A stretch of 64,000 nucleotides of DNA. Source: Thiomargarita sp. GTDB taxonomy: Bacteria; Pseudomonadota; Gammaproteobacteria; Beggiatoales; Beggiatoaceae. This document shows, piece after piece, positions 2,544 through 22,894 of the stretch. The stretch is from positions 1-64,000 of the forward strand of contig DYNP01000002.1 of NCBI GenBank assembly GCA_020721005.1. Reading direction: 5' to 3'. Both the position numbers and the translations under genes were made by a program. Within the stretch, counting starts at the first letter, position 1. The number at the start of each line of letters is the position of its first letter. The notes beneath the pieces are model-generated. The model searched no databases and was not told the DNA's origin. It was given only the letters and a program-made list of their open reading frames with translations.

Positions 2544-3080
2544 ATGTCAACAAATTATCAGTTAATTGAAAAGGATATTACTCAGTTGTCCATGGATGCC
2601 ATTGTCAATGCAGCCAATGAATCCTTGTTAGGAGGAGGTGGCGTGGATGGGGCAATTCACCGTGCTGCCGGACCAAAATTGTTGGCAGAATGCCGGAGTT
2701 TGAGGGGCTGTGCCACAGGTCAAGCCAAAATTACTCAGGGTTATCAGTTACCTGCACGTTTTGTAATTCACACCGTAGGACCTATTTGGCGGGGGGGACA
2801 GAGTGGAGAGGCCGCTTTGCTGGCCAGTTGTTATCAACAAAGTTTAGAATTGGCTTGGGCCCATTGTATTAAAAGCATTGCCTTTCCTGCAATCAGTTGT
2901 GGAGTGTATGGCTATCCCTTGGCGGAAGCCAGTCGAATTGCCGTGGAAACTGTGGTAAGCCGGACTCAAGAGAAATCAGGGATAGACACGGTTTACTTTG
3001 TGGTTTTCAGCCCAACAGTTTTCAACGCTTATCAACAAAGATTTTCCGAATCGGAGTACCCATTGACTGAGCGCTCTTGA
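2544..3080 (+). CDS. Macrodomain protein, O-acetyl-ADP-ribose deacetylase type
   Basis: Single macrodomain of 178 residues, the usual size of YmdB-type enzymes that hydrolyse O-acetyl-ADP-ribose or remove ADP-ribose from proteins. The ligand-binding signatures are intact: NAANESLLGGGGVDGAIH (adenine/ribose loop, with the Asn and Asp used in catalysis), GCATGQAKITQGYQLPA, VIHTVGPIW, and the diphosphate loop FPAISCGVYGYP. The start overlaps the region in front of the divergent AEC transporter with 3 bp between the two ATGs. The gene is monocistronic; a consensus-like promoter for the next gene begins 29 bases after its stop. Confidence 0.92.
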   Translation: MSTNYQLIEKDITQLSMDAIVNAANESLLGGGGVDGAIHRAAGPKLLAECRSLRGCATGQAKITQGYQLPARFVIHTVGPIWRGGQSGEAALLASCYQQSLELAWAHCIKSIAFPAISCGVYGYPLAEASRIAVETVVSRTQEKSGIDTVYFVVFSPTVFNAYQQRFSESEYPLTERS

Positions 3081-3108
3081 TTCAACAAGATTGGTCACAG
3101 TTTCTATT

Positions 3109-3137
3109 TTGACAAAATGCGTAAAATCCTGTATCCT
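3109..3137 (+). promoter_or_regulatory. Sigma-70 type promoter for the methyltransferase fusion gene
   Basis: TTGACA at 3109-3114 and TATCCT at 3132-3137 are separated by 17 bases. The first box is perfect and the second matches 4 of 6. The ATG of the downstream gene is at 3168, which leaves a short leader. Confidence 0.55.
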
Positions 3138-3167
3138 TAAACATTTCTTATCCAGTGAGACTTGTTT

Positions 3168-5348
3168 ATGAATTCACCTTTGCAACTTCCTTCTCCACAT
3201 CGACGAATCAATCTTGGCAGTGGCAACATTCAATTGCCAGGATATTGGAATGTGGATATTCATGCCCAAGCTGATATTGTATTGGATCTTGAACGGGACA
3301 ATTTGCCATTTCCAGATGACAGTGTGGACAGTTTAGTCTGTATTTCTGTGATCAACTATTTCACCAGGGAACGGGCTCAAATCCTTATCCAAGAAGTGTT
3401 CAGAGTGTTAAAACCCGGGGGATTGACTCGATTTGCCAGTCAAGACTTGCGCATTTTGACTCAAAAATATTTGCAGCGAGATGATGCCTTTTATCGACAA
3501 AAATTGGCTTCTGGTCAAGAGCGTTTTCCTGGAGAAACTTTGGCTGACAAACTCAATGCTTTCTTCTATGGCTTTCCCACTGCGGGTAATAAACATTGTC
3601 AGTATGTCTATGATTTTGAAACTTTAAGTTTATTATTTCACAAAGCTGGTTTTGTTCAGATTCAACAAAAAAACTACTTGGAAAGTCAACTGCCTGACAT
3701 TGATAAAATTGACAATCGTCCAGAGCAAATGTTTTTCTTAGAAGCCAACAAGCCCTCCAAAAATGAGATCACTGTTGCGCTTCCAGCAAGCCCTGCTCAT
3801 CCTGTGCCCGATCAAGAAACCCGGCTCAATTCCCCCTCTCTCACTGATTTGCCTCCTTCTGGTACCGACTTGCAAATGGCACGGGAATTGTGGAAAACAG
3901 GCCGGTCCCAAAAGGCTTGGCAATATTTGCTCAAATCGTTAACAGAGCATCCGGATGATCGTGAAGCTGTGCTCATGGCCGGTGAAATTCTGATTCATTT
4001 ACAAAAGGATGCAGAGGCCAGTCAACTGTATCAAACTTATTTACAACGACATTCCCAAGATTTGAAAATTCAACAGGCTCTAACCGCGCTCATCAATTCC
4101 CCAACAAAATCCCCCCTCTCCAAAATGGCTCATCCGCTACTGGCTTCCCTGAAAACCTATCAAAATCCAGTCCTTTCTGATCGGGAACATTTACAGGCTT
4201 GTATGCACTGGCTGAGAAGAGCCCAACAGGTAACTGGCAATGGAGGAGTGGCTGCCACTTATAACTTGCAGCAACAAGAATGGGGGGTAGCTTATCCAGA
4301 AACCACAGGTTATATCATTCCCACATTCTTAGCCTATGCCCATTTAACTGGAAAAGAAGAATATCGAGCATCGGCAGTGGAGATGGGAAATTGGGAAATA
4401 GAGATTCAGTGGCCAGATGGAGGAGTTGGAGAACCTTTAGGGGTCTATGGACACAGGCCTAGGGTGTTCAATACCAGTCAAGTGATCCTGGGTTGGTTGG
4501 CACTTTATCGAGAAACCCAAGAGCCACGTTATCTAACTGCGGCTGAATTGGCAGGTCACTGGATTGTTGCGCAACAAGACAGCGATGGCAAGTGGACAAA
4601 AAGCACTTTCAATGGGCCCAAAAGTTATAAAATCAGAGTGGCTTGGTCCCTGTTAGAATTGTTTGCCTGCACTCAATATCCCGGCTATCGCCAAGCTGCC
4701 CAACGTGCCATTCAGTGGGTATTGAGTCAAGCCCATCCCAATGGCTGGTTTGCTTCCCAAAATCTAGCCGTTGCCGAGCCTTGGACACATTTGATCGGTT
4801 ACACTCTGCAGGGACTGTTAGAAATCTGTTTACTGGATGAGGTGCAATTTGATCGAGCCACCGCCTTGCATTCACTGCAACAAGCGGCTCATCATCTGTG
4901 CCACCGTTACTATGCTCTTAAACAATCTTCCTCAACTCCCTTCTTGGGACTGGCTGGCACTTTAAATTCTCAATGGTCCAGTCAAGATTCCTGGTCTTGC
5001 GTGACTGGGAATGCACAAATTGCCTTTTTCCTGCATAAATTGGCAACCCATTACACTCGCTTATTAACCGTCAATCAAGCTTATATCTCTTCGGTTGAAG
5101 AATTAAATTCCCAAGCTCGGCTTCTTGAATGGTTGCAAGTGGCTAATGGGTTGCACACTGATCTTAAGAAAATACACTGGGTTACGCAATTTTCAGCAGA
5201 TGAAAATTTGTATGGTGGCTTGCCCGGTTCTCATCCTATTGAAGGTCCTTATCTTACCAATGCCATTCCCAATTGGGGAGTTAAATTTTTTGCAGACACT
5301 TGTTTGCAAAAAACATTGCCAGAGGAATGGTTGCGCTATTTGGGGTAA
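3168..5348 (+). CDS. Fusion of SAM methyltransferase, TPR-like linker and alpha/alpha-toroid domain
   Basis: Protein of 726 residues. I prefer ATG 3168 over a TTG six bases upstream. Residues 8-190 form a class I SAM-dependent methyltransferase: INLGSGNIQLPGYWNVDI is motif I with the post-I acidic residue, and the LPFPDDSVDSL and EVFRVLKPGG motifs follow. Residues about 235-310 contain two tetratricopeptide-like helices (ARELWKTGRSQKAWQYLLK, AVLMAGEILIHLQKDAEASQLY). Residues about 340-725 form repeating helical hairpins rich in Gly, Trp and Tyr (for example GVAYPETTGYIIPTFLAYA, VAWSLLELFA), resembling the six-hairpin/terpenoid-cyclase toroid fold found in exopolysaccharide gene sets. Methylation of a sugar or polymer is plausible, but no partner gene is adjacent. 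The end product is unknown. Confidence 0.7.
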   Translation: MNSPLQLPSPHRRINLGSGNIQLPGYWNVDIHAQADIVLDLERDNLPFPDDSVDSLVCISVINYFTRERAQILIQEVFRVLKPGGLTRFASQDLRILTQKYLQRDDAFYRQKLASGQERFPGETLADKLNAFFYGFPTAGNKHCQYVYDFETLSLLFHKAGFVQIQQKNYLESQLPDIDKIDNRPEQMFFLEANKPSKNEITVALPASPAHPVPDQETRLNSPSLTDLPPSGTDLQMARELWKTGRSQKAWQYLLKSLTEHPDDREAVLMAGEILIHLQKDAEASQLYQTYLQRHSQDLKIQQALTALINSPTKSPLSKMAHPLLASLKTYQNPVLSDREHLQACMHWLRRAQQVTGNGGVAATYNLQQQEWGVAYPETTGYIIPTFLAYAHLTGKEEYRASAVEMGNWEIEIQWPDGGVGEPLGVYGHRPRVFNTSQVILGWLALYRETQEPRYLTAAELAGHWIVAQQDSDGKWTKSTFNGPKSYKIRVAWSLLELFACTQYPGYRQAAQRAIQWVLSQAHPNGWFASQNLAVAEPWTHLIGYTLQGLLEICLLDEVQFDRATALHSLQQAAHHLCHRYYALKQSSSTPFLGLAGTLNSQWSSQDSWSCVTGNAQIAFFLHKLATHYTRLLTVNQAYISSVEELNSQARLLEWLQVANGLHTDLKKIHWVTQFSADENLYGGLPGSHPIEGPYLTNAIPNWGVKFFADTCLQKTLPEEWLRYLG

Positions 5349-5467: not shown

Positions 5468-7018
5468 ATGAACGAGGAAGTTTTAATCAATGTCACGCCA
5501 CGAGAAACTCGGGTGGCAATAGTTGAGAATGGGATTTTGCAAGAGGTGGCTATTGAGAGAACGCGTCATAAAGGAATAGTGAGTAACCTTTATAAAGGTA
5601 AAGTTTGTCGGGTGCTGCCAGGTATGCAAGCTGCTTTTGTGGACATTGGGTTAGAGCGGGCGGCTTTTTTACATGTTTCTGATGCAGTGACTCATCAGGC
5701 AGAGCCGCATCCAAAATCTGATCAAATTCATGCTGTTTTACGGGAAGGTCAATCGTTATTGGTGCAGGTAATCAAGGAACCTTTGGGAACAAAGGGGGCT
5801 CGTCTCACTACCCAAATCTCAATCCCCTCACGCTATGTTGTGTTTTTACCTTATTCTCCGGGCATGATTGGGGTCTCAGCTAAGATTGAACGGGAGGAGG
5901 AGCGGAAACGACTTAAACAAATTGCTTTAAATTACATGGGGATAGCAGAGCAAGCCTTGATAGAGCAAAACAGTTTCAATGAAACAATTTTGGTCGCAGT
6001 GTCTGCAGAAAAGAGCAGTTTGAAAAATTGTGGACAGTATGGTTTTATTGTTCGCACTGCTGCTGAGGGAGCAACTGAGTCTCGATTGTGTGCCGATATG
6101 GAATTTGTATGTCGATTGTGGAAAGATATTGTAGATAAAAGTAATCACAGTATGACTTGTTCCCTGATTTACAGTGATTTTTCTTTGGCAGTGCGGGCTC
6201 TAAGGGACTTGATTGGCACTTCTGTGGAAAAAATACGGGTAGATTCTGAAAAGACTTATCATGAAATTGGAGAATTTACCCAGAAATTTGTTCCAGATTT
6301 GGTGGGTAAAATTGAGCTTTATCAGGAAGATCGTCCTATTTTTGATTTGTACACCATTGATGATGAGATCACCAGGGCCTTGGAACGTAAGGTGAGTTTG
6401 AAATCTGGGGGATATTTGGTCATTGATCAGACGGAAGCGATGACCACTATTGATGTAAATACCGGAGCTTACGTGGGAAGTCGAAATTTGGAAGAGACGA
6501 TCTTTAAGACGAATTTGGAGGCTGCTCAAGCGATTGCGCGTCAGTTAAGATTGAGGAATTTGGGGGGAATTATTATTGTCGATTTTATCGACATGTTAGA
6601 TTTTGAGCATAAGCGACAGGTTTTGCAGACTTTGGAGCGGTCTTTGGAACGGGATCATACCAAAAGTCATATCAGCGAGGTGTCTTCATTGGGACTGGTG
6701 CAGATGACTCGTAAACGGACCCGAGAGAGTTTAGAGCATTTATTATGTGAGACTTGCCCAATTTGTGGGGGACGTGGGAATATTAAAACTCCAGAGACTG
6801 TATCTTATGAGATTTTGCGAGAAATCAGTCGGGAGGCTCGATTGTTTGACACGCAGCAGTTTTTGGTATTGGCTTCTCCGGAGGTGGTGGATTTTTTATT
6901 GGATGAGGAGTCGAGTAGTATTGCTGAGTTGGAAGATTATTTGGAGCGAACGATTAAGTTGCAGGTGGAAACTTCTTATACTCAGGAGCAATATGATATT
7001 ATTCCCACTTCAGTTTGA
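5468..7018 (+). CDS. rng: Ribonuclease G
   Basis: Endoribonuclease of 516 residues, the usual length of RNase G, which lacks the long C-terminal scaffold of RNase E. It matures the 5' end of 16S rRNA and cleaves some mRNAs. An S1 domain occupies residues about 38-130 (GNLYKGKV-like start, PGMQAAFVDIGLERAAFLHV). The catalytic DNase I-like domain carries MTTIDVNTG and IIIVDFIDM, whose aspartates bind the catalytic magnesium. The zinc-link CETCPICGGRG lies near residue 430. A ribosome binding site (AAAAGGATG) precedes ATG 5468. It is followed after 44 bases by a flavodoxin-fold gene, probably in the same transcript. The usual neighbour maf is absent. Confidence 0.97.
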   Translation: MNEEVLINVTPRETRVAIVENGILQEVAIERTRHKGIVSNLYKGKVCRVLPGMQAAFVDIGLERAAFLHVSDAVTHQAEPHPKSDQIHAVLREGQSLLVQVIKEPLGTKGARLTTQISIPSRYVVFLPYSPGMIGVSAKIEREEERKRLKQIALNYMGIAEQALIEQNSFNETILVAVSAEKSSLKNCGQYGFIVRTAAEGATESRLCADMEFVCRLWKDIVDKSNHSMTCSLIYSDFSLAVRALRDLIGTSVEKIRVDSEKTYHEIGEFTQKFVPDLVGKIELYQEDRPIFDLYTIDDEITRALERKVSLKSGGYLVIDQTEAMTTIDVNTGAYVGSRNLEETIFKTNLEAAQAIARQLRLRNLGGIIIVDFIDMLDFEHKRQVLQTLERSLERDHTKSHISEVSSLGLVQMTRKRTRESLEHLLCETCPICGGRGNIKTPETVSYEILREISREARLFDTQQFLVLASPEVVDFLLDEESSSIAELEDYLERTIKLQVETSYTQEQYDIIPTSV

Positions 7019-14973: not shown

Positions 14974-15159
14974 TTACCCGAAAATCACCAAAGTATTAAG
15001 TAGCACTATCCAGATTATCTCCGCTCGATAACAGTATAACACTGCTTCCACGAATAGACGGTTATCCTTGACTGTTACTCCTACATCTCCCTCCCGTCCA
15101 GGTAGTAAATCTTTTATTCTTCTCCATTGATCATCGCGTAATCCATATCCGTCTGTCAT
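14974..15159 (-). pseudogene. Remnant of an IS5-type transposase (N-terminal fragment)
   Basis: The 61-codon frame begins MTDGYGLRDDQWRRIKDLLPG and continues through VKDNRLFVEAVLYCYRA, which is the N-terminal helix-turn-helix region (DUF4096) of IS5-family transposases. After that the match is lost: the expected residues FGDFR reappear in another frame before a stop. A frameshift has therefore occurred and the catalytic DDE region is gone. It is the scar of an insertion next to rseC. Confidence 0.75.
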
Positions 15160-15561: not shown

Positions 15562-17568
15562 ATGTTTTTATTAGATGGGGGTATCCTACTTGGGACCTAT
15601 TTCGGTGTTAGACTGATCGAAAAATATCGAAAAAGTGGGAAAAATAGCAAAAATAAAGTGAGTTCAAAAAAATCATCACAACCCATGATTTCAGATAAAC
15701 AAAACTTGCCGGGTCCAACTGAAAAGCAATTCAATCACTACTTAAAATTGAGTACCGTTTCAGTCGGTGTGGCAGCAACTCGACAATTTTTTCTCCCTTC
15801 TTTGGGCTTGTTCAATGCCGTGCTTTTTACCTACATTGCATTCCCAATGCTCAGAGAGAGCGAAAAATCATTGCTTCAAAATCGAAAAATCAATGGCTAT
15901 GTACTTGAAACTTTACTCACCGTTTTGGCACTCAGTCAGGGTCAATATTTTGCAGCAGCCATGGTACTTTGGTCCTACTATTTGGGCCACAAAATTCTCG
16001 CCAAAACTGAAGACCATTCCAAAAAAACCCTGACCGCTGTTTTTGCGCAACAACCTAATTTCGTCTGGGTACTTAAGGATGGGGTTGAAATCGAAGTGCC
16101 TCTGTCAAAACTGAAAATCAATGATATTGTGGTTGTAAATACTGGAGAAGTTGTACCGATTGATGGTACAATTGTCAAGGGAATAGCACTGATTGATCAA
16201 CGTGCGTTGACTGGCGAGTCGCAACCGGCTGATAAGGGAATGGGTGATACGATTTTTGCATCAACCTTGCTGATCAGTGGTAGGATTTTTGTCAAAGTCG
16301 AAAAAACCGGTCAAGACACTACCGTGGCTAAAATTGGTCAATTTTTGGCCCAATCCGCTTATTTTAAAACCAATCTCCAATCCAAAGGAGAAGAGTTGGC
16401 TGATAAAACGGTTAATCCAATTTTGGGACTGGGCTTACTCACTTTACCTTGGGTGGGCCCTTATGGTATGGCGGCAGTTTTATACTGCAGTTTCGGAAAT
16501 GTCATTAGAGTATTAAGTTCACTGGGCACATTAAATTTCCTGACTGTCGCTGCTCGTCAAGGTATTTTGGTCAAAGATGGACGAGCTATTGAGTATCTAA
16601 ATGAAGTAGATACTGTACTTTTTGACAAAACCGGAACTTTAACTAAGGAAGAGCCCGAAATTGGACAAGTCATCGTTTGTGACAATCAATACCAAGCAGA
16701 TGAGGTATTACAGTATGCGGCAGCAGCTGAACGTAAACTTGCTCATCCTATTGCCAGAGCCATTCTAAAAAAAGCCAGCCGCTCAAATCTCATTTTACCA
16801 GATATAGGAGATGCCCAATATCAAATGGGCTATGGTATTACCGTCATTTTGAAAAACCAAGTCATTCGCGTGGGCAGTCTTCGCTTTATGACCATGGAAA
16901 ATATTGTCATTCCCCAAAGTTTAGACGCCCTGCTCACTAAAACACATGATGAAGGACATTCATTGGTCATGGTGGCAATCGATGATCGCTTAATAGGCGC
17001 CATCGAATTACAAGCATCCGTGCGTCCGGAAATAAAATCCATTGTCGCTGGCTTGCGTCGGCGCGGAATTAAACATCTTGCCATTGTGTCCGGTGATCAT
17101 CAACAACCCACCCAAAAATTGGCTGAAACACTGGGCATGGACGATTATTTCTATGAGATATTGCCGGAACAAAAAGCGGAAATTATTGAAAAATTACAAC
17201 AACAAGGCAGAAAAGTTTGCTTTGTTGGCGATGGCATTAACGATGCCATTGCTCTAAAAAAAGCCAACGTTTCGGTCTCTTTGAATGGCGCAACCACCAT
17301 TGCCACCGATATGGCCCAAGTTGTGTTAATGAACGGGACTTTATCTCACCTGTGCGATTTATTTGACATATCAAGAGATTTAAACAAAAACTTACATTAC
17401 AGTCTTCTCACCACAGTCATGTCCAGCGTTGTTAATCTGAGCGGTATTTTTTTGTTCCACTTTGGATTGCTAAGTGTTGTATTGGTTGCCAACACAGCAA
17501 CCGCAATCGGTGTGAGTAATGCAATGAGTCCCTTATTAAAACTGGAAAAACCAAACAAGAAACGATGA
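15562..17568 (+). CDS. P1B-like P-type ATPase lacking the CPC metal motif
   Basis: Membrane ATPase of 668 residues with no N-terminal metal-binding domain. The catalytic core is complete: actuator TGES (about 217-220), phosphorylation site DKTGTLTKE from residue 355, the HP locus KLAHPIARAIL (about 391-401) and hinge VGDGINDAIALKKANVSVSL (about 554). The family's membrane motif CPC/SPC should sit 27 residues before the GILVKDG turn; here those positions read F311-G312-N313, preceded by Y-C-S. A classical copper or zinc site is therefore not evident, and the transported species is uncertain. The gene ends with an ATGA overlap onto the PP-loop gene, so the two are translationally coupled. Confidence 0.82.
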   Translation: MFLLDGGILLGTYFGVRLIEKYRKSGKNSKNKVSSKKSSQPMISDKQNLPGPTEKQFNHYLKLSTVSVGVAATRQFFLPSLGLFNAVLFTYIAFPMLRESEKSLLQNRKINGYVLETLLTVLALSQGQYFAAAMVLWSYYLGHKILAKTEDHSKKTLTAVFAQQPNFVWVLKDGVEIEVPLSKLKINDIVVVNTGEVVPIDGTIVKGIALIDQRALTGESQPADKGMGDTIFASTLLISGRIFVKVEKTGQDTTVAKIGQFLAQSAYFKTNLQSKGEELADKTVNPILGLGLLTLPWVGPYGMAAVLYCSFGNVIRVLSSLGTLNFLTVAARQGILVKDGRAIEYLNEVDTVLFDKTGTLTKEEPEIGQVIVCDNQYQADEVLQYAAAAERKLAHPIARAILKKASRSNLILPDIGDAQYQMGYGITVILKNQVIRVGSLRFMTMENIVIPQSLDALLTKTHDEGHSLVMVAIDDRLIGAIELQASVRPEIKSIVAGLRRRGIKHLAIVSGDHQQPTQKLAETLGMDDYFYEILPEQKAEIIEKLQQQGRKVCFVGDGINDAIALKKANVSVSLNGATTIATDMAQVVLMNGTLSHLCDLFDISRDLNKNLHYSLLTTVMSSVVNLSGIFLFHFGLLSVVLVANTATAIGVSNAMSPLLKLEKPNKKR

Positions 17569-18959
17569 GTACACTTTGGCTTGAACACTACACCCGTTCC
17601 AGACATCAATTATCCATGATTTTTGGGATCGACGATCTCCGTTTTTCCACATCCTATTGGTACAACGATGTTGACCTGCTTGAATTGGAACATCGACTTG
17701 GCATCGATTACATGGAAAAAATTTACTTTCACATCATCGCTTTTGAAGCGAATAAATTGACCAGTTTACAACCGGATACTTTTGATTTAGGTCCCTTCAA
17801 ACGATTTCACACCCCTGAATTTCAAACACTGTGGTTAACCATTCAAAACAATGTCTGGGCACAATGGCGATATGAAAACCAACTTCCCGAATATGCGGGT
17901 CCCCATTTCTCAAGTCAACCTGTCCAAACCGTTCCCCTGCCTCAACACATTGCCGAAAACAACGACTCAATTCTCCTATTTTGTGGAGGCGGAAAAGACA
18001 GTTTAGTCTCCCTAAAATTGTTAGAAAGAAGCAATCTTTCCTATGCCAGCTGCGCCTATTCCAGCTCAATCTATGGTCGTGCCGCCCCCCAACACCAACT
18101 GATAGATGCACTGTTGGACACTGCCAAACCCCAAACACGACATAAGATTTGGATTTACGAAGACTTTTTAGACAGTCCAGTGACCCAATTGGCAGCAGAA
18201 TATGGTGTCACCTCATTGACCGCAGCAGAAACTCCCAGCTCCCTCTTTGCTTCTTTACCTCTTGTTTTGCAGCATCAATATCGCTACATCAGTTTGGGGC
18301 ATGAACGGAGTGCGGATCTGCCTAATTTGGTTTGGGAATTAACGGGTGAACCGGTTAACCATCAATGGGGCAAATCTTCTGAAGCTGAACAATTGCTAAA
18401 CAATTACCTGCAACATCAATTTATTGCCAACAGTCAGTATTTTAGTTTACTCAAACCAATTTACGATGTTGTCATTTTTAACTTACTTCGGTTAGACTTG
18501 GACAATGTACCCTTCACCCATTCCTGTAACGTGGCCAAACCCTGGTGTAAAAAATGTGCCAAATGTGCCTATGTTTGGCTCAATTACATGGCTTACCTGC
18601 CCATTGATTTAGTCAACTCCCTGTTTCAAACCAACCTATTTGACATCCCAGAAAATCAACTCTGGTTTAGACAAATGTTGGGACTTGAAAAACACACCCC
18701 TTTTGAATGTATTGGGCAAATCCACGAATCCCGACTCGCTTTTGAAATCTGTCGTCGTAAAGGGCTCACTGGTCAAGCCATGCAACTATTTATCAACGAA
18801 GTCAAAGATTTTAATCCCCATGCCGCTGTAAATGACACTGTCACTGTCGATCACAACTACCCATTGCTCCCGCCCACCCTGGCGAACAAAATCTACCCTC
18901 AACTGACTCAAGCCGCCAAAGCCAGTCAGGAATATCTAAACCATTTACTGTCACAATAA
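17565..18959 (+). CDS. PP-loop ATP pyrophosphatase-type protein resembling MurL epimerase
   Basis: Protein of 464 residues. Residues about 139-150 hold the PP-loop LLFCGGGKDSLVSLKLL of adenylating N-type ATP pyrophosphatases. Residues about 321-334 carry four cysteines in CNVAKPWCKKCAKC. Downstream, LFDIPENQLWFRQMLGL and HTPFECIGQIHESRLAFE resemble my memory of MurL, the ATP-dependent epimerase that converts the L-Glu of UDP-MurNAc-L-Ala-L-Glu to D-Glu. MurL genes normally sit beside murD2, which is absent. The operon with an unusual ATPase and a radical SAM enzyme may mean that this paralogue adenylates a different carboxylate. I am sure of the PP-loop and only moderately sure of the MurL relation. 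Confidence 0.6.
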   Translation: MSTLWLEHYTRSRHQLSMIFGIDDLRFSTSYWYNDVDLLELEHRLGIDYMEKIYFHIIAFEANKLTSLQPDTFDLGPFKRFHTPEFQTLWLTIQNNVWAQWRYENQLPEYAGPHFSSQPVQTVPLPQHIAENNDSILLFCGGGKDSLVSLKLLERSNLSYASCAYSSSIYGRAAPQHQLIDALLDTAKPQTRHKIWIYEDFLDSPVTQLAAEYGVTSLTAAETPSSLFASLPLVLQHQYRYISLGHERSADLPNLVWELTGEPVNHQWGKSSEAEQLLNNYLQHQFIANSQYFSLLKPIYDVVIFNLLRLDLDNVPFTHSCNVAKPWCKKCAKCAYVWLNYMAYLPIDLVNSLFQTNLFDIPENQLWFRQMLGLEKHTPFECIGQIHESRLAFEICRRKGLTGQAMQLFINEVKDFNPHAAVNDTVTVDHNYPLLPPTLANKIYPQLTQAAKASQEYLNHLLSQ

Positions 18960-18975
18960 AGAACGAAGAATCCAT

Positions 18976-20481
18976 ATGTCACGCTTAAACACTCCAACAA
19001 TAGGTTTGGTTGAACTCCCTGAATTAGGTATTTTCGATCCAGAAGGCAAAAACAGAGCTTCAGTCCGTAAAGGATCGGCTTTAATCAGCAAACAAGTGCT
19101 ACTGGCTGATCTACAAGCCAAAGGCTTCGATGCCCAATTAATCAATCTAAAACAAGGGCATGAAGCAATCGAATATGGAAAAGTGAATTGGGGAAACACG
19201 GAGCTGACTAAAGTTTACCTAGGCAGCAACATAACTGAACTTGATCCACAAGCCCATGATGTTTGGGGAATTACCAATAATTTTTCCCAACATCGAGAAC
19301 TTGCCGGCATGACCATCAAGCATCTCGCAAGTCAAGGCAAACCAGTTGTTGTTGGCGGCTCTGATGCCTTTGCAGAACCCCATTTTTACCTTAAAGCAGG
19401 GGCAACCGCTGTGGTCTTAGATCAATCGGGGGCTGTGAATGCGCCCATCATAGACCATGTATTGGGAAGGACGCCAAGAGACATGCTCTCGGAGGTTGTG
19501 TTGGCTGATGGCAAGCCCGTGCCCAGACGCTTGCCTGCATTAAGCCCAGAAGATTGGTCCCTGCCAGACATGTCTGTGGTAACCCAATGTTTGGGCACAG
19601 AATATTGGAACCTAGACTATCCACAACATTTATTACCCATCGGTTCAGTATTTACAGACATTGGTTGTGATCGGCAATGCGACTTTTGTCAAACCCCCCA
19701 ATATCGCTTAGGATATCGTGCCATGTCACCTGAAAGAGCCTTACAATGGTTTGCCGCGCAAAAAGCGGCCGGTGCCGGCTCAGTCATCGGCTCCTCCGAC
19801 CAATTTTTAGCGCGCATTCTCAAAAAAGGGGGACGAGATGATATCCTTCGTATCATGGAAGGAATAAGAGAATTAGGCATCGCAATTCTTTGGCCCAATG
19901 GCTTAGAACTCAAAAAAGTAACATTGGGACGTGGCATCAACCGCGGCACCCCTGATCTAACTCCAGATGAAGAATTAATTGCAGCCCTTTGGGGTTGGGA
20001 CGGTAAAGTGGGATGTTATCACGCTTACATTCCAGCAGAAAGACCCGTTTTTGGACGAGAAAACTACCAAAAATTACTGCCCTGGCAAGATCATTGTAAA
20101 ATTGTTAAAACCATTGTCAGCACCGGCTTACCTCATCTAACATACGGTGTTATCATTGGATTTGCAGATGACAGTGAAGAAACATTATTGCGCCTTGAAG
20201 AAGCCATTTTAGAACTGCATCATGAACTCTTGACTATTAACCCTACATTACAATTCCAAGTGTCCCCATTTTCAATCTTTCCAATACCGGGCACTCCACA
20301 ATCAATTCAATTGCGCCAATCAGGACTGCTTGAATATCAAGAAGAATTAAGCATTTTTGGTGGACTCTGGACTCCCTCAATTAACACACGCTATCTTAGC
20401 TACAAAGACATTGCGCGTTGGCAAAATCGACTCAAACAAATTGGATGCCTTGCAGGCAAAACCGACTTTATTTTATTCTGA
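18976..20481 (+). CDS. Radical SAM protein with N-terminal B12-binding-like domain
   Basis: Protein of 501 residues. The radical SAM cluster motif is C231-x3-C235-x2-C238 (IGCDRQCDFCQTPQY). Residues 1-200 form an alpha/beta region in the place of the cobalamin-binding domain of class B radical SAM enzymes (LVVGGSDAF-type loop: GKPVVVGGSDAFAEP), but no DxHxxG cobalamin ligand motif is visible, so B12 binding is uncertain. C-terminal part: VIIGFADDSEETL, typical of the barrel end in this class. It starts 16 bases after the PP-loop gene and is the last gene of the operon. The reaction is unknown. Confidence 0.78.
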   Translation: MSRLNTPTIGLVELPELGIFDPEGKNRASVRKGSALISKQVLLADLQAKGFDAQLINLKQGHEAIEYGKVNWGNTELTKVYLGSNITELDPQAHDVWGITNNFSQHRELAGMTIKHLASQGKPVVVGGSDAFAEPHFYLKAGATAVVLDQSGAVNAPIIDHVLGRTPRDMLSEVVLADGKPVPRRLPALSPEDWSLPDMSVVTQCLGTEYWNLDYPQHLLPIGSVFTDIGCDRQCDFCQTPQYRLGYRAMSPERALQWFAAQKAAGAGSVIGSSDQFLARILKKGGRDDILRIMEGIRELGIAILWPNGLELKKVTLGRGINRGTPDLTPDEELIAALWGWDGKVGCYHAYIPAERPVFGRENYQKLLPWQDHCKIVKTIVSTGLPHLTYGVIIGFADDSEETLLRLEEAILELHHELLTINPTLQFQVSPFSIFPIPGTPQSIQLRQSGLLEYQEELSIFGGLWTPSINTRYLSYKDIARWQNRLKQIGCLAGKTDFILF

Positions 20482-20663: not shown

Positions 20664-21620
20664 CTATTCCACTCTTAAACAATGCACGCTGAACAAAGCA
20701 TCGGAATCACTCCATACTTGTATTGGCTGAAAACCGACTTCACTGGCCAAATTCTGAAATTGGGTAACTGTGTATTTATACGAGTTTTCTGTATGAATAC
20801 TTTCACCTTCCTCAAATTGAAAACGTTGCCCATCCACTTGAACTTCATGGGAAACCTGACTCACTAAGTGCATTTCTATCCGTCCTTGCTGTTCATTATA
20901 AAAAGCATGGTGGTTAAAACGTGACAAATCAAAATCAGCATTTAACTCTTGATTGATGCGCGTCAGCAAATTGAAATTGAAAGCGGCGGTAACCCCGGCA
21001 GCATCATTGTAAGCGGCATTTAAACGTTCCTGATCTTTTTTAAGATCAACACCTATTAATAAGGTACTGCCTGAACCTAAAAAATCAGCAACCCGTTGCA
21101 ATAAATTTTGCGCTTGCGGGGGATCGAAATTGCCAATACTTGAGCCAGGAAAAAAAACCGCTTTGGGTTTGTCATTCGGATCATAAGGCAAATGAAAATG
21201 GTCTGAATAATCTGCACAAGTGGCATGAATGTCTAAATTTGGATAATCGTTAGCAAGAATGTGCGCTGATTTTAATAAATGTGCTTTACAAATATCGATG
21301 GGCATGTAAGCCGCGGGTTGCAACGCGTTGAGTAACAGGCGGATCTTCAAACTACTGCCACTGCCCAACTCGATTAACAAACAATCCTTGCCCAGCAACG
21401 AAATCATCTCTTTACCATGCTCTTCTAAAATGCTTATTTCGGTCCGAGTTGGATAATATTCTGGCAACTCTGTGATTTGGTCAAACAATTGGGAACCATA
21501 CTCATCATAAAAAAATTTGGGTGAAATGGTTTTTGGTTGACTGGCTAAACCTATCAACACCTCAGTTTTTAGATCAGCCACCGGTGGATGCAAATCGTGA
21601 AAATGCACCGTCCCTTTCAT
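20664..21620 (-). CDS. egtD: L-histidine N-alpha-methyltransferase EgtD
   Basis: SAM-dependent enzyme that trimethylates the alpha-amino group of histidine to hercynine, the first step of ergothioneine synthesis. From ATG 21620 the protein has 318 residues, the usual size. Seen: the substrate region SPKFFYDEYGSQLFDQITELPEYYPTR (shown here in part: FFYDEYGSQLFDQIT), the SAM-binding LIELGSGSSLKIRLLL, and the FFPGSSIGNF loop. The start is fixed by a one-base overlap with the egtB stop (TGATG), so the two are translationally coupled. Its stop lies two bases from a MITE end. Confidence 0.93.
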   Translation of the reverse strand: MKGTVHFHDLHPPVADLKTEVLIGLASQPKTISPKFFYDEYGSQLFDQITELPEYYPTRTEISILEEHGKEMISLLGKDCLLIELGSGSSLKIRLLLNALQPAAYMPIDICKAHLLKSAHILANDYPNLDIHATCADYSDHFHLPYDPNDKPKAVFFPGSSIGNFDPPQAQNLLQRVADFLGSGSTLLIGVDLKKDQERLNAAYNDAAGVTAAFNFNLLTRINQELNADFDLSRFNHHAFYNEQQGRIEMHLVSQVSHEVQVDGQRFQFEEGESIHTENSYKYTVTQFQNLASEVGFQPIQVWSDSDALFSVHCLRVE

Positions 21621-22894
21621 CACAAATCCTCCGCCAAACGAAAACCTTTGAACTGCCAACGTTCATGTGGGTAGAAAAAATTGCGGTACGTGACGCGAAT
21701 ATGATCGTTCGGTGTGACGCAAGAACCACCGCGCAAAACCATCTGATTACACATGAATTTACCATTATACTCGCCTAACGCTCCAGATTGGCAACGGTAA
21801 CCAGGATAAGGACTATAAGGCGACTGCGTCCATTCCCACACATCCCCAAACATCTGTAATAAACCCGTATCCTGCTCAGCCACAACCGGCTGTAAAAATC
21901 CACTATCACGCAAATTCCCTTGAATCGGCAACTCACGCGCTACAAATTCCCATTCCGCTTCAGTGGGCAACCGTTTTTCCTGCCAAGTCGCAAACGCATC
22001 CGCTTCATAATAACTGACATGACACACAGGTTCATCCATCACCAGTAAACGCATTCCAGCCAACGTCATTTGCCACCATTGCCCATCCAGCTTTTCCCAG
22101 TACAATGGCGTTTTCCAACCCATCTTCTTCACAGCACTCCAACCGTCAGATAACCACAATTCAGCACGTTGATAACCCTCAGCTTCGACAAAGGCCAAAA
22201 ACTCACCATTCGTGATTAACCGTGAGGCCAACTTAAAAGGGGGAATGTACAGTTGATGACGAGGAGACTCATTGTCATAGGCAAATCCGTCGCCTTGAAA
22301 ACCGATGGATTCTAGGCCCCCCGTATATTCAAACCACCTCAACAAAGGTGCGTTTTTACAGGATGATATCGGCAAATCTTCACGATAAGCCGGGCGTAAG
22401 GGATTAAACGCTAAATTATATTTTATATCCGTCAATAACAATTCTTGATGTTGCTGCTCATGGTTCAATCCAATCAACAAACGCGCCTCAATATCAAACC
22501 AGTCTTCTTCTTCAGCGGTTTCAAGCAACATTGCCATTTGCTCATCCACGTAGGCACGATAACGGTAAGTTTCCTCTACAGTCGGACGAGATAATAAACC
22601 GCGTTGCGGACGTGGCCAAAACTGTCCCACCTGTTCATAGTAGGAGTTAAACAAATAACGAAAACGGGGATGAAAATCACGATAATTCGGAGAAAAAACA
22701 GTTAAAATAAATGTCTCATAAAACCAAGTCACATGAGCCAAATGCCATTTCGCTGGACTGGCTTCTGGTGTAGTCTGAATTATATAATCCTCAATCTGAA
22801 GCGACTGACACAATCGTTCGCTATTTTGACGGACAGTGTAGAAATACTGTATGGACTCTTGGCGAGACAACGACACTGTGATTAATGAACTCAT
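21620..22894 (-). CDS. egtB: Ergothioneine sulfoxide synthase EgtB
   Basis: Non-haem iron enzyme of 424 residues joining hercynine to a cysteine-containing thiol with oxygen. A DinB-like N-terminal domain carries the iron ligands H51/H54 region (WHLAHVTWF) and the canonical HX3HXE motif H145-H149-E151 (NHEQQHQE). The C-terminal formylglycine-enzyme-like domain shows RLPTEAEWEFVAR, QMFGDVWEWTQSPY and VLRGGSC. The gene leads the egtB-egtD pair. No egtC amidohydrolase or egtE lyase is nearby, so whether cysteine or gamma-glutamylcysteine is used cannot be read from context. Confidence 0.93.
   Translation of the reverse strand: MSSLITVSLSRQESIQYFYTVRQNSERLCQSLQIEDYIIQTTPEASPAKWHLAHVTWFYETFILTVFSPNYRDFHPRFRYLFNSYYEQVGQFWPRPQRGLLSRPTVEETYRYRAYVDEQMAMLLETAEEEDWFDIEARLLIGLNHEQQHQELLLTDIKYNLAFNPLRPAYREDLPISSCKNAPLLRWFEYTGGLESIGFQGDGFAYDNESPRHQLYIPPFKLASRLITNGEFLAFVEAEGYQRAELWLSDGWSAVKKMGWKTPLYWEKLDGQWWQMTLAGMRLLVMDEPVCHVSYYEADAFATWQEKRLPTEAEWEFVARELPIQGNLRDSGFLQPVVAEQDTGLLQMFGDVWEWTQSPYSPYPGYRCQSGALGEYNGKFMCNQMVLRGGSCVTPNDHIRVTYRNFFYPHERWQFKGFRLAEDL

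Follow-up and report, generated by a model that had tools for sequence, protein, structure and literature searches.

What is the function of three adjoining genes that lie directly beside the genes for ergothioneine (EGT), a widespread antioxidant, in a Thiomargarita genome? The genes were found in a stretch of 64,000 nucleotides (positions 1 to 64,000, forward strand, of contig DYNP01000002.1 of Thiomargarita sp.), which is referred to here as the window; the genome it comes from is denoted G000. The trio at 15562-20481 is intact, entirely on the plus strand and open from ATG to stop in each frame, and it encodes a CPC-less P-type ATPase (P0001, 668 aa, 15562..17568), a MurL-like PP-loop protein (P0002, 464 aa, 17565..18959) and a radical S-adenosylmethionine (SAM) protein with a predicted B12-type fold (P0003, 501 aa, 18976..20481). 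The first two genes overlap in an ATGA at 17565-17568, and 16 bases (18960-18975) separate P0002 from P0003. This layout and the three product names had been given in an initial annotation and were borne out; none of the three scores as a known equivalog. Directly downstream and convergent with the trio, both on the minus strand, are egtD, coding for L-histidine N-alpha-methyltransferase (20664..21659; TIGR03438, 417.3 bits, cut-off 290.9), and egtB, coding for ergothioneine biosynthesis protein EgtB (21620..22894; TIGR03440, 562.7 bits, cut-off 360). The listed start of egtD is a TTG at 21659, and an ATG 13 codons inward is more likely. We consider it probable that the trio and the convergent egtB-egtD together form an extended EGT cluster, in which two of the enzymes serve for tailoring and the ATPase acts as a dedicated pump. 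The initial annotation had taken egtB-egtD as a mere flank of an accessory pathway; this view was abandoned, as the egt genes recur with genes of the trio and are most likely part of the system.

The recurrence is seen first among relatives of the source genome, in a family with records under the names Thiotrichaceae bacterium, Thiomargarita and Marithrix. In a search of 95 genomes a P0002 homologue at about 55% identity or more was present in G000 and four others. In these five family genomes egtD lies within 5 kb of the MurL-like gene in all five, a CPC-less ATPase within 10 kb in four and the radical SAM gene beside it in three. EgtD at 50% identity or more is found in 9 of 42 genomes of the family, and in 5/5 of those with the close MurL-like protein (P=1.5e-4). 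An alignment-based scan of the genome collection gave 21 MurL-like loci, 13 of them non-cyanobacterial, which together with the window makes 14, from Thiotrichaceae, other gammaproteobacteria with Crenothrix, Scalindua, Bacteroidetes, Planctomycetales and Acidimicrobiales. An egtD gene lies within 5 kb, at 14-4802 bp, in 8/14 of these (the window, L041, L043, L045, L046, L064, L066 and L067, spanning Thiotrichaceae to Bacteroidetes), and egtB within 6 kb in 7/14. Under a uniform 4-Mb model the egtD count is very unlikely, though the related loci among them do not count as independent. At the level of whole genomes 11/14 have an EgtD homologue, in some cases only 37-44% identical; that of L067, the one checked against the EgtD cut-off, passes it with 312.5 bits. 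The clearest case outside the bacterial family is Crenothrix polyspora, where 7.3 kb of one contig hold the radical SAM gene (63%), egtD, egtB, a CPC-less ATPase (42%) and an EgtE-like pyridoxal phosphate (PLP) enzyme; its MurL-like gene (62%) is truncated by the end of another contig. Class-V PLP enzymes also stand beside the egt genes in G006 and G003, and elsewhere in the genome in G007, scoring 44-46 bits on the EgtE model against a cut-off of 400. EgtE-like proteins were found in 6 of the 10 egt genomes searched, and another lyase could serve. At the level of sequence, then, P0002 and P0003 are associated with EGT genes in several genomes.

Could the trio be an independent pathway which landed by chance beside egtB-egtD, perhaps by way of a transposable element? 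A transposase-like N-terminal fragment, a 61-aa frame outside the system (14974..15159, minus strand), does lie 0.4 kb upstream of the trio; we take it to be the N-terminus of an IS5-type transposase. Loci without egt genes also exist, both for ATPases of the clade and for the radical SAM family. Parts of the association recur, however, in G007, G006, G035, G003, Crenothrix, the gammaproteobacterium L064 and the Bacteroidetes L066 and L067, and these recurrences differ in gene order and orientation. Hence we regard a chance landing as improbable.

For the MurL-like protein the assignment rests on a match to the MurL model NF041275 of 98.9 bits over residues 99-395, which makes P0002, judged by its sequence, a homologue of MurL that falls short of the equivalog cut-off of 700. 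When P0002 was aligned with 14 homologues, 25 columns were invariant, including G-x-GKDS, the four cysteines C321, C328, C331 and C334, and E381-C382-x-G384. Three of the 15 aligned sequences are MurL-type proteins from the family of the source genome, probably MurL themselves from their 495-547 bits on the model (below the cut-off of 700). With these P0002 has in common G141-x-GKDS, S320-C321, W327-C328, C331, K333-C334, E381-C382-x-G384 and E388. The activity of Xanthomonas MurL is described in PMC8788868, according to which one ATP is consumed and AMP is formed. A search of the PDB gave no sequence relatives of P0002 at E 1.

The radical SAM assignment of P0003 likewise held: its score on the Pfam Radical_SAM model (26.9 bits) is slightly below the cut-off of 29.5, but the CxxxCxxC motif (C231, C235, C238) is invariant in 9/9 aligned homologues. 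The Pfam B12-binding match (E 0.052) is below the cut-off, and no PDB sequence match was obtained at E 0.01. A structure model was obtained with a mean predicted local distance difference test score (pLDDT) of 69.2, and a Foldseek search with it placed MgmA, AprD4, TsrM and OxsB among the best hits (E 2e-11 to 2e-8). These are loose matches to the B12-type enzymes MgmA, TsrM and OxsB and to AprD4, with 12-15% identity, TM-scores of 0.33-0.46 and a root mean square deviation near 10. AprD4 has the B12-type fold without B12. From the model we suggest that P0003 is probably a B12-type radical SAM enzyme. Homologues are rare, found in 1/398 genomes of a phylum sample (the window's own) and in 11/95 of the relatives search, own genome included. 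They are sometimes arranged in tandem arrays, as with the seven matches in G016.

The neighbours of this family were counted as well, without a control. In 12/12 informative loci the radical SAM gene has within 5 kb either egtD, a different methyltransferase or a dioxygenase of the gamma-butyrobetaine type. The neighbour is egtD in five (the window, G007, G006, Crenothrix and Okeania G500), another methyltransferase in six (G016, G025, G037, G036, G017 and Trichodesmium G502) and a gamma-butyrobetaine-dioxygenase-like protein in one (Okeania G498). The G037 methyltransferase was assigned through its likeness to the G025 gene, the radical SAM copy of G017 is divided between two frames, and the contig read for G036 measures 3.5 kb. 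Left out of the 12 were G039 (radical SAM genes only on contig C613, and fragments), G018 (disrupted) and G026 (fragment). Three of the other methyltransferases were scanned with NCBIfam, the best match being the sarcosine/dimethylglycine type at 92-290 bits, which misses the cut-off of 550. From these uncontrolled neighbour counts we infer that the common substrate of the radical SAM loci is an N-methylated amino acid.

Some loci of this family deserve mention in their own right. In Okeania G500 (L234) an EgtD-like protein, an OvoA-type 5-histidylcysteine sulfoxide synthase (TIGR04344, 609.6 bits, cut-off 400) and the P0003 homologue are found within 7.6 kb. The single 25-kb contig of the seven G016 matches (C139; L049, L050) also carries methyltransferases, CPC-less ATPase genes and a gene resembling Asp/Glu racemases. 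In L054 two KamA-family (aminomutase-like) radical SAM genes (2851-4194 and 5881-6981) flank a frame-split P0003 homologue, and a double methyltransferase and a CPC-less ATPase are located near it.

The more general and more surprising part of the system is the clade to which the ATPase belongs. P0001 scores 402.1 bits on TIGR01525 (cut-off 346.25) and has the catalytic motifs TGES, DKTGT (at 355), HP and GDGIND. As the initial annotation had noticed, CPC is missing; aligned residues 311-313 read F-G-N, where canonical Cu ATPases have C-P-C in 29/29, and R316 lies in the same helix. Neither CPC, SPC or CPH anywhere nor an N-terminal CxxC was present in any of 92 clade members, against 29/29 canonical Cu ATPases for both; the canonical set was picked by the Cu family model, so that CPC is expected, and 29 of the 30 fetched are in the alignment. 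In the first loci set (81 loci, part of them retrieved on account of other genes, the remainder taken from the best matches listed) 78 full-length members gave CPC/SPC/CPH in 0/78, DKTGT in 77/78 and HP in 78/78, along with TGES in 51/78, the rest having mostly TGEA or TGEF. ATPases aligned over 450 residues or less were dropped from the motif counts, the tree and the 92-member alignment, and those of 400 or less from the neighbour count below. A new pattern is seen in what was the metal helix: position 316 is Arg or Lys in 80/92 and position 325 is Asn in 84/92, residues that may bind the carboxylate of a cargo. For M6 and M7-M8 the clade has a mean column entropy of 1.95 and 2.29 bits, against 0.81 and 1.07 in the canonical ATPases, with similar values for the catalytic motifs; here orthologues on the canonical side are compared with many paralogues on the other.

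The CPC-less clade is expanded in the family of the source genome. An ATPase match at 1e-50 was found in 71/95 genomes of the relatives search, canonical ATPases included, and family genomes often carry several, up to at least 13 among the matches listed; as about 12 candidates were scored per genome, less similar members are under-sampled in the loci set above. In the phylum sample 5/397 other genomes had a match at 1e-95. In the tree, for which Shimodaira-Hasegawa-like approximate likelihood ratio (SH-aLRT) support was computed without bootstrap, the clade separates with full support from the six canonical ATPases included, and P0001 groups in one clade (98) with the ATPases of G035 and G007, which are likewise EGT-linked. 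Crenothrix sits on a long branch. A group test on the tree omitted 85 unlabelled rows, and its 'one change' for the egt group is not evidence of one origin. Directly upstream of the EGT-linked ATPase of G035 we observed a 1135-aa frame (L041:8175-11582) combining a molybdopterin-oxidoreductase-like part with a NifS-like cysteine desulfurase.

To which genes, then, are these ATPases coupled? A same-strand neighbour within 250 bp was found for 70/92 CPC-less ATPases and 13/30 canonical ones (P=0.001), where the canonical loci have flanks of only about 1.5 kb and thus a lower chance of showing a neighbour. The partners of the CPC-less ATPases are enriched in methyltransferases and assembly-line enzymes, and those of the canonical Cu ATPases (n=30) are not. 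The 87 CPC-less partners include Methyltransf_11 (15), AMP-binding (7), PP-binding (7), Aminotran_1_2 (5) and Condensation (4), classes which can overlap. The 17 canonical partners include one methyltransferase, and no assembly-line domains occur among 25 of their 31 families listed. Among 87 random control genes were three EgtD-like and one MurL-like, with Methyltransf_11 and AMP-binding each seen at most once among the first 25 of 158 control families listed. The methyltransferase enrichment is at P=1.5e-4 against 1/87, or P=0.03 when six control methyltransferases (three Methyltransf_33, three MTS) are counted, and that of AMP-binding at P=0.03 against 1/87. It should be noted that the control genes come from the same loci, some of which were chosen for egt or radical SAM genes, which makes the control conservative and not independent; that related loci are not independent in these statistics either; and that partner frames under 75 aa or with X were dropped.

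Individual loci illustrate the enrichment. In the window's own genome two CPC-less ATPases lie directly downstream of genes reading as nonribosomal peptide synthetases (NRPS), one after a 120-bp gap (L135) and the other with a 4-bp overlap (L136), and outside the family G164 and G168 each have a gene reading as NRPS that shares a 4-bp overlap with the ATPase. A polyketide synthase (PKS) overlaps a CPC-less ATPase in Crenothrix and stands beside one in Scalindua. EgtD-like methyltransferases are found beside the ATPase in G040 (280.2 bits, narrowly below the cut-off) and near it in G014, with one small frame intervening. Two further observations concern such partners: the ATPase-adjacent PKS frame of Scalindua (L237) is 2633 aa long with an AprA MT2-like domain, and in the window's own genome a gene at L133:5515-6306 with an NAD-synthetase-like reading overlaps a CPC-less P-ATPase by 4 bp.

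These data bear on the question whether the ATPase is instead a divergent metal exporter, with the enzymes making a metallophore, or an EGT derivative which binds the metal and is carried along with it. Heavy-metal ATPases are indeed the closest named families and the closest solved structures, and a P-type ATPase of the lusichelin cluster is tied by its authors to siderophore export or import (PMC12210259). Against this stand the complete lack of both metal motifs in the clade, the membrane-helix entropy of about twice the canonical value and the varied biosynthetic enzymes among the partners, and we find a metal exporter unlikely. The initial annotation had left open whether the ATPase moves the product or a metal bound to it. 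Its proposal of small-molecule modification coupled to transport fits, and of its two cargoes the product agrees with our data, while for the metal it is the family name that speaks. We put forward, tentatively and at somewhat less than even chance, that the metal-site-less clade comprises pumps devoted to small organic metabolites (betaines, amino-acid derivatives and NRPS/PKS products), which biosynthetic operons recruited repeatedly, and that the cargo of the window copy is a modified EGT, perhaps C-methylated or D-configured.

For the extended EGT cluster, the following sequence of events is proposed for chemistry and cargo, both of which are inferred. EgtD would make hercynine, EgtB would add the sulfur and a PLP lyase would release EGT. 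By analogy with MurL, P0002 would adenylate the carboxylate of EGT or of an intermediate with ATP, and most likely epimerise the alpha carbon, the alternative outcome being an amide or a conjugate. P0003 might alter a carbon, methylation being one example. Through its aspartyl-phosphate cycle, the CPC-less P-ATPase would then move the finished zwitterionic product, rather than a metal, across the membrane. We favour epimerisation because the residues common with MurL-type proteins are kept. A variant in which P0002 instead forms an amide, nitrile or conjugate on the adenylated carboxylate, or activates another atom, is a real though lesser possibility. Its PP-loop and Cys motif would also suit the broader chemistry of PP-loop enzymes, for instance QueC, to which we presume a likeness; on the other side are the 25 columns kept invariant across P0002 and homologues that include MurL-type proteins.

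Several observations weigh against an extended EGT cluster with these functions. Six of the 14 MurL-like loci have no egt gene within the fetched flanks (one of them cut at a contig end), and no EgtD homologue was found in three of the 14 genomes (G493, G495 and G496). Conversely, G002, G005, G013 and G017 have EgtD at 63-79% without the close MurL-like protein; as these four family genomes manage without it, the MurL-like protein would be an add-on to the EGT pathway and no core step. The initial annotation had asked how often the three homologues co-occur as neighbours: they do co-occur, but in the five family genomes the trio itself is not the conserved unit, an idea we rejected since G003 and G035 lack the radical SAM homologue and G006 lacks an ATPase match at 1e-50. 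In G035, moreover, the MurL-like frame is interrupted by an in-frame TGA and no egtB is present in the 20-kb stretch, and the genome search gave no EgtE-like match in either G035 or G000. Among 16 other MurL-like genomes searched (L077 was left out of the EgtD, radical SAM and ATPase searches) the radical SAM gene is present in four (Crenothrix and three cyanobacteria) and an ATPase match of at least 39% in two (Scalindua and Crenothrix), and the egt-linked Bacteroidetes have the MurL-like gene with no radical SAM or ATPase match at the thresholds used. The cyanobacterial MurL-like homologues (33-37%) belong to a different cluster. A single lineage of EGT-linked ATPases was also rejected, those of Crenothrix, G003, L165 and L166 lying elsewhere in the tree, and a structure prediction of P0002 was discarded as too poor (pLDDT 51.7, predicted template modelling score 0.38).

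The cyanobacterial loci L073-L080, from Symploca, Okeania, Hydrocoleum, Moorena, Trichodesmium and Spirulina, have a gene content of their own. Beside the MurL-like homologue several of them hold neighbours read as nadA/nadB/nadC, an isochorismatase-type hydrolase, a short-chain dehydrogenase/reductase, a gamma-butyrobetaine-type dioxygenase and a sarcosine/dimethylglycine-type methyltransferase, apparently a recurring uncharacterised cluster.

P-type ATPases are known to transport ions, lipids, polyamines and protein helices, and we know of none that has been shown to carry natural products or amino-acid betaines. No proposal of a general role of P-type ATPases as natural-product exporters, and no report tying MurL-like or such radical SAM proteins to ergothioneine, was found among the open-licence papers listed, at the level of titles and abstract openings. 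The present data suggest P-type ATPases dedicated to small organic molecules, and a metal-site-less clade linked to biosynthetic operons makes organic cargo a testable idea. If the proposed cluster is real, EGT tailored by two uncharacterised enzymes and then transported would be a new branch of EGT biology.

Compared with known EGT biosynthesis (EgtB, EgtD, EgtE), the window has egtB and egtD, both above the NCBIfam cut-offs, adjoining the trio, and differs by the addition of P0001, P0002 and P0003. P0002 is homologous to MurL with the motif residues in common, yet it is far below the equivalog cut-off and below the MurL-type proteins of its own family, and it adjoins egt genes. With the P1B heavy-metal ATPases CopA and ZntA, P0001 shares the family match and the catalytic motifs, whereas its clade has neither CPC/SPC/CPH nor the N-terminal CxxC, and its membrane helices are variable. 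Further, P-type ATPase genes are already known by annotation in NRPS/PKS clusters, as single annotations, in the sources on lusichelin (PMC12210259) and miuraenamide (PMC10051162).

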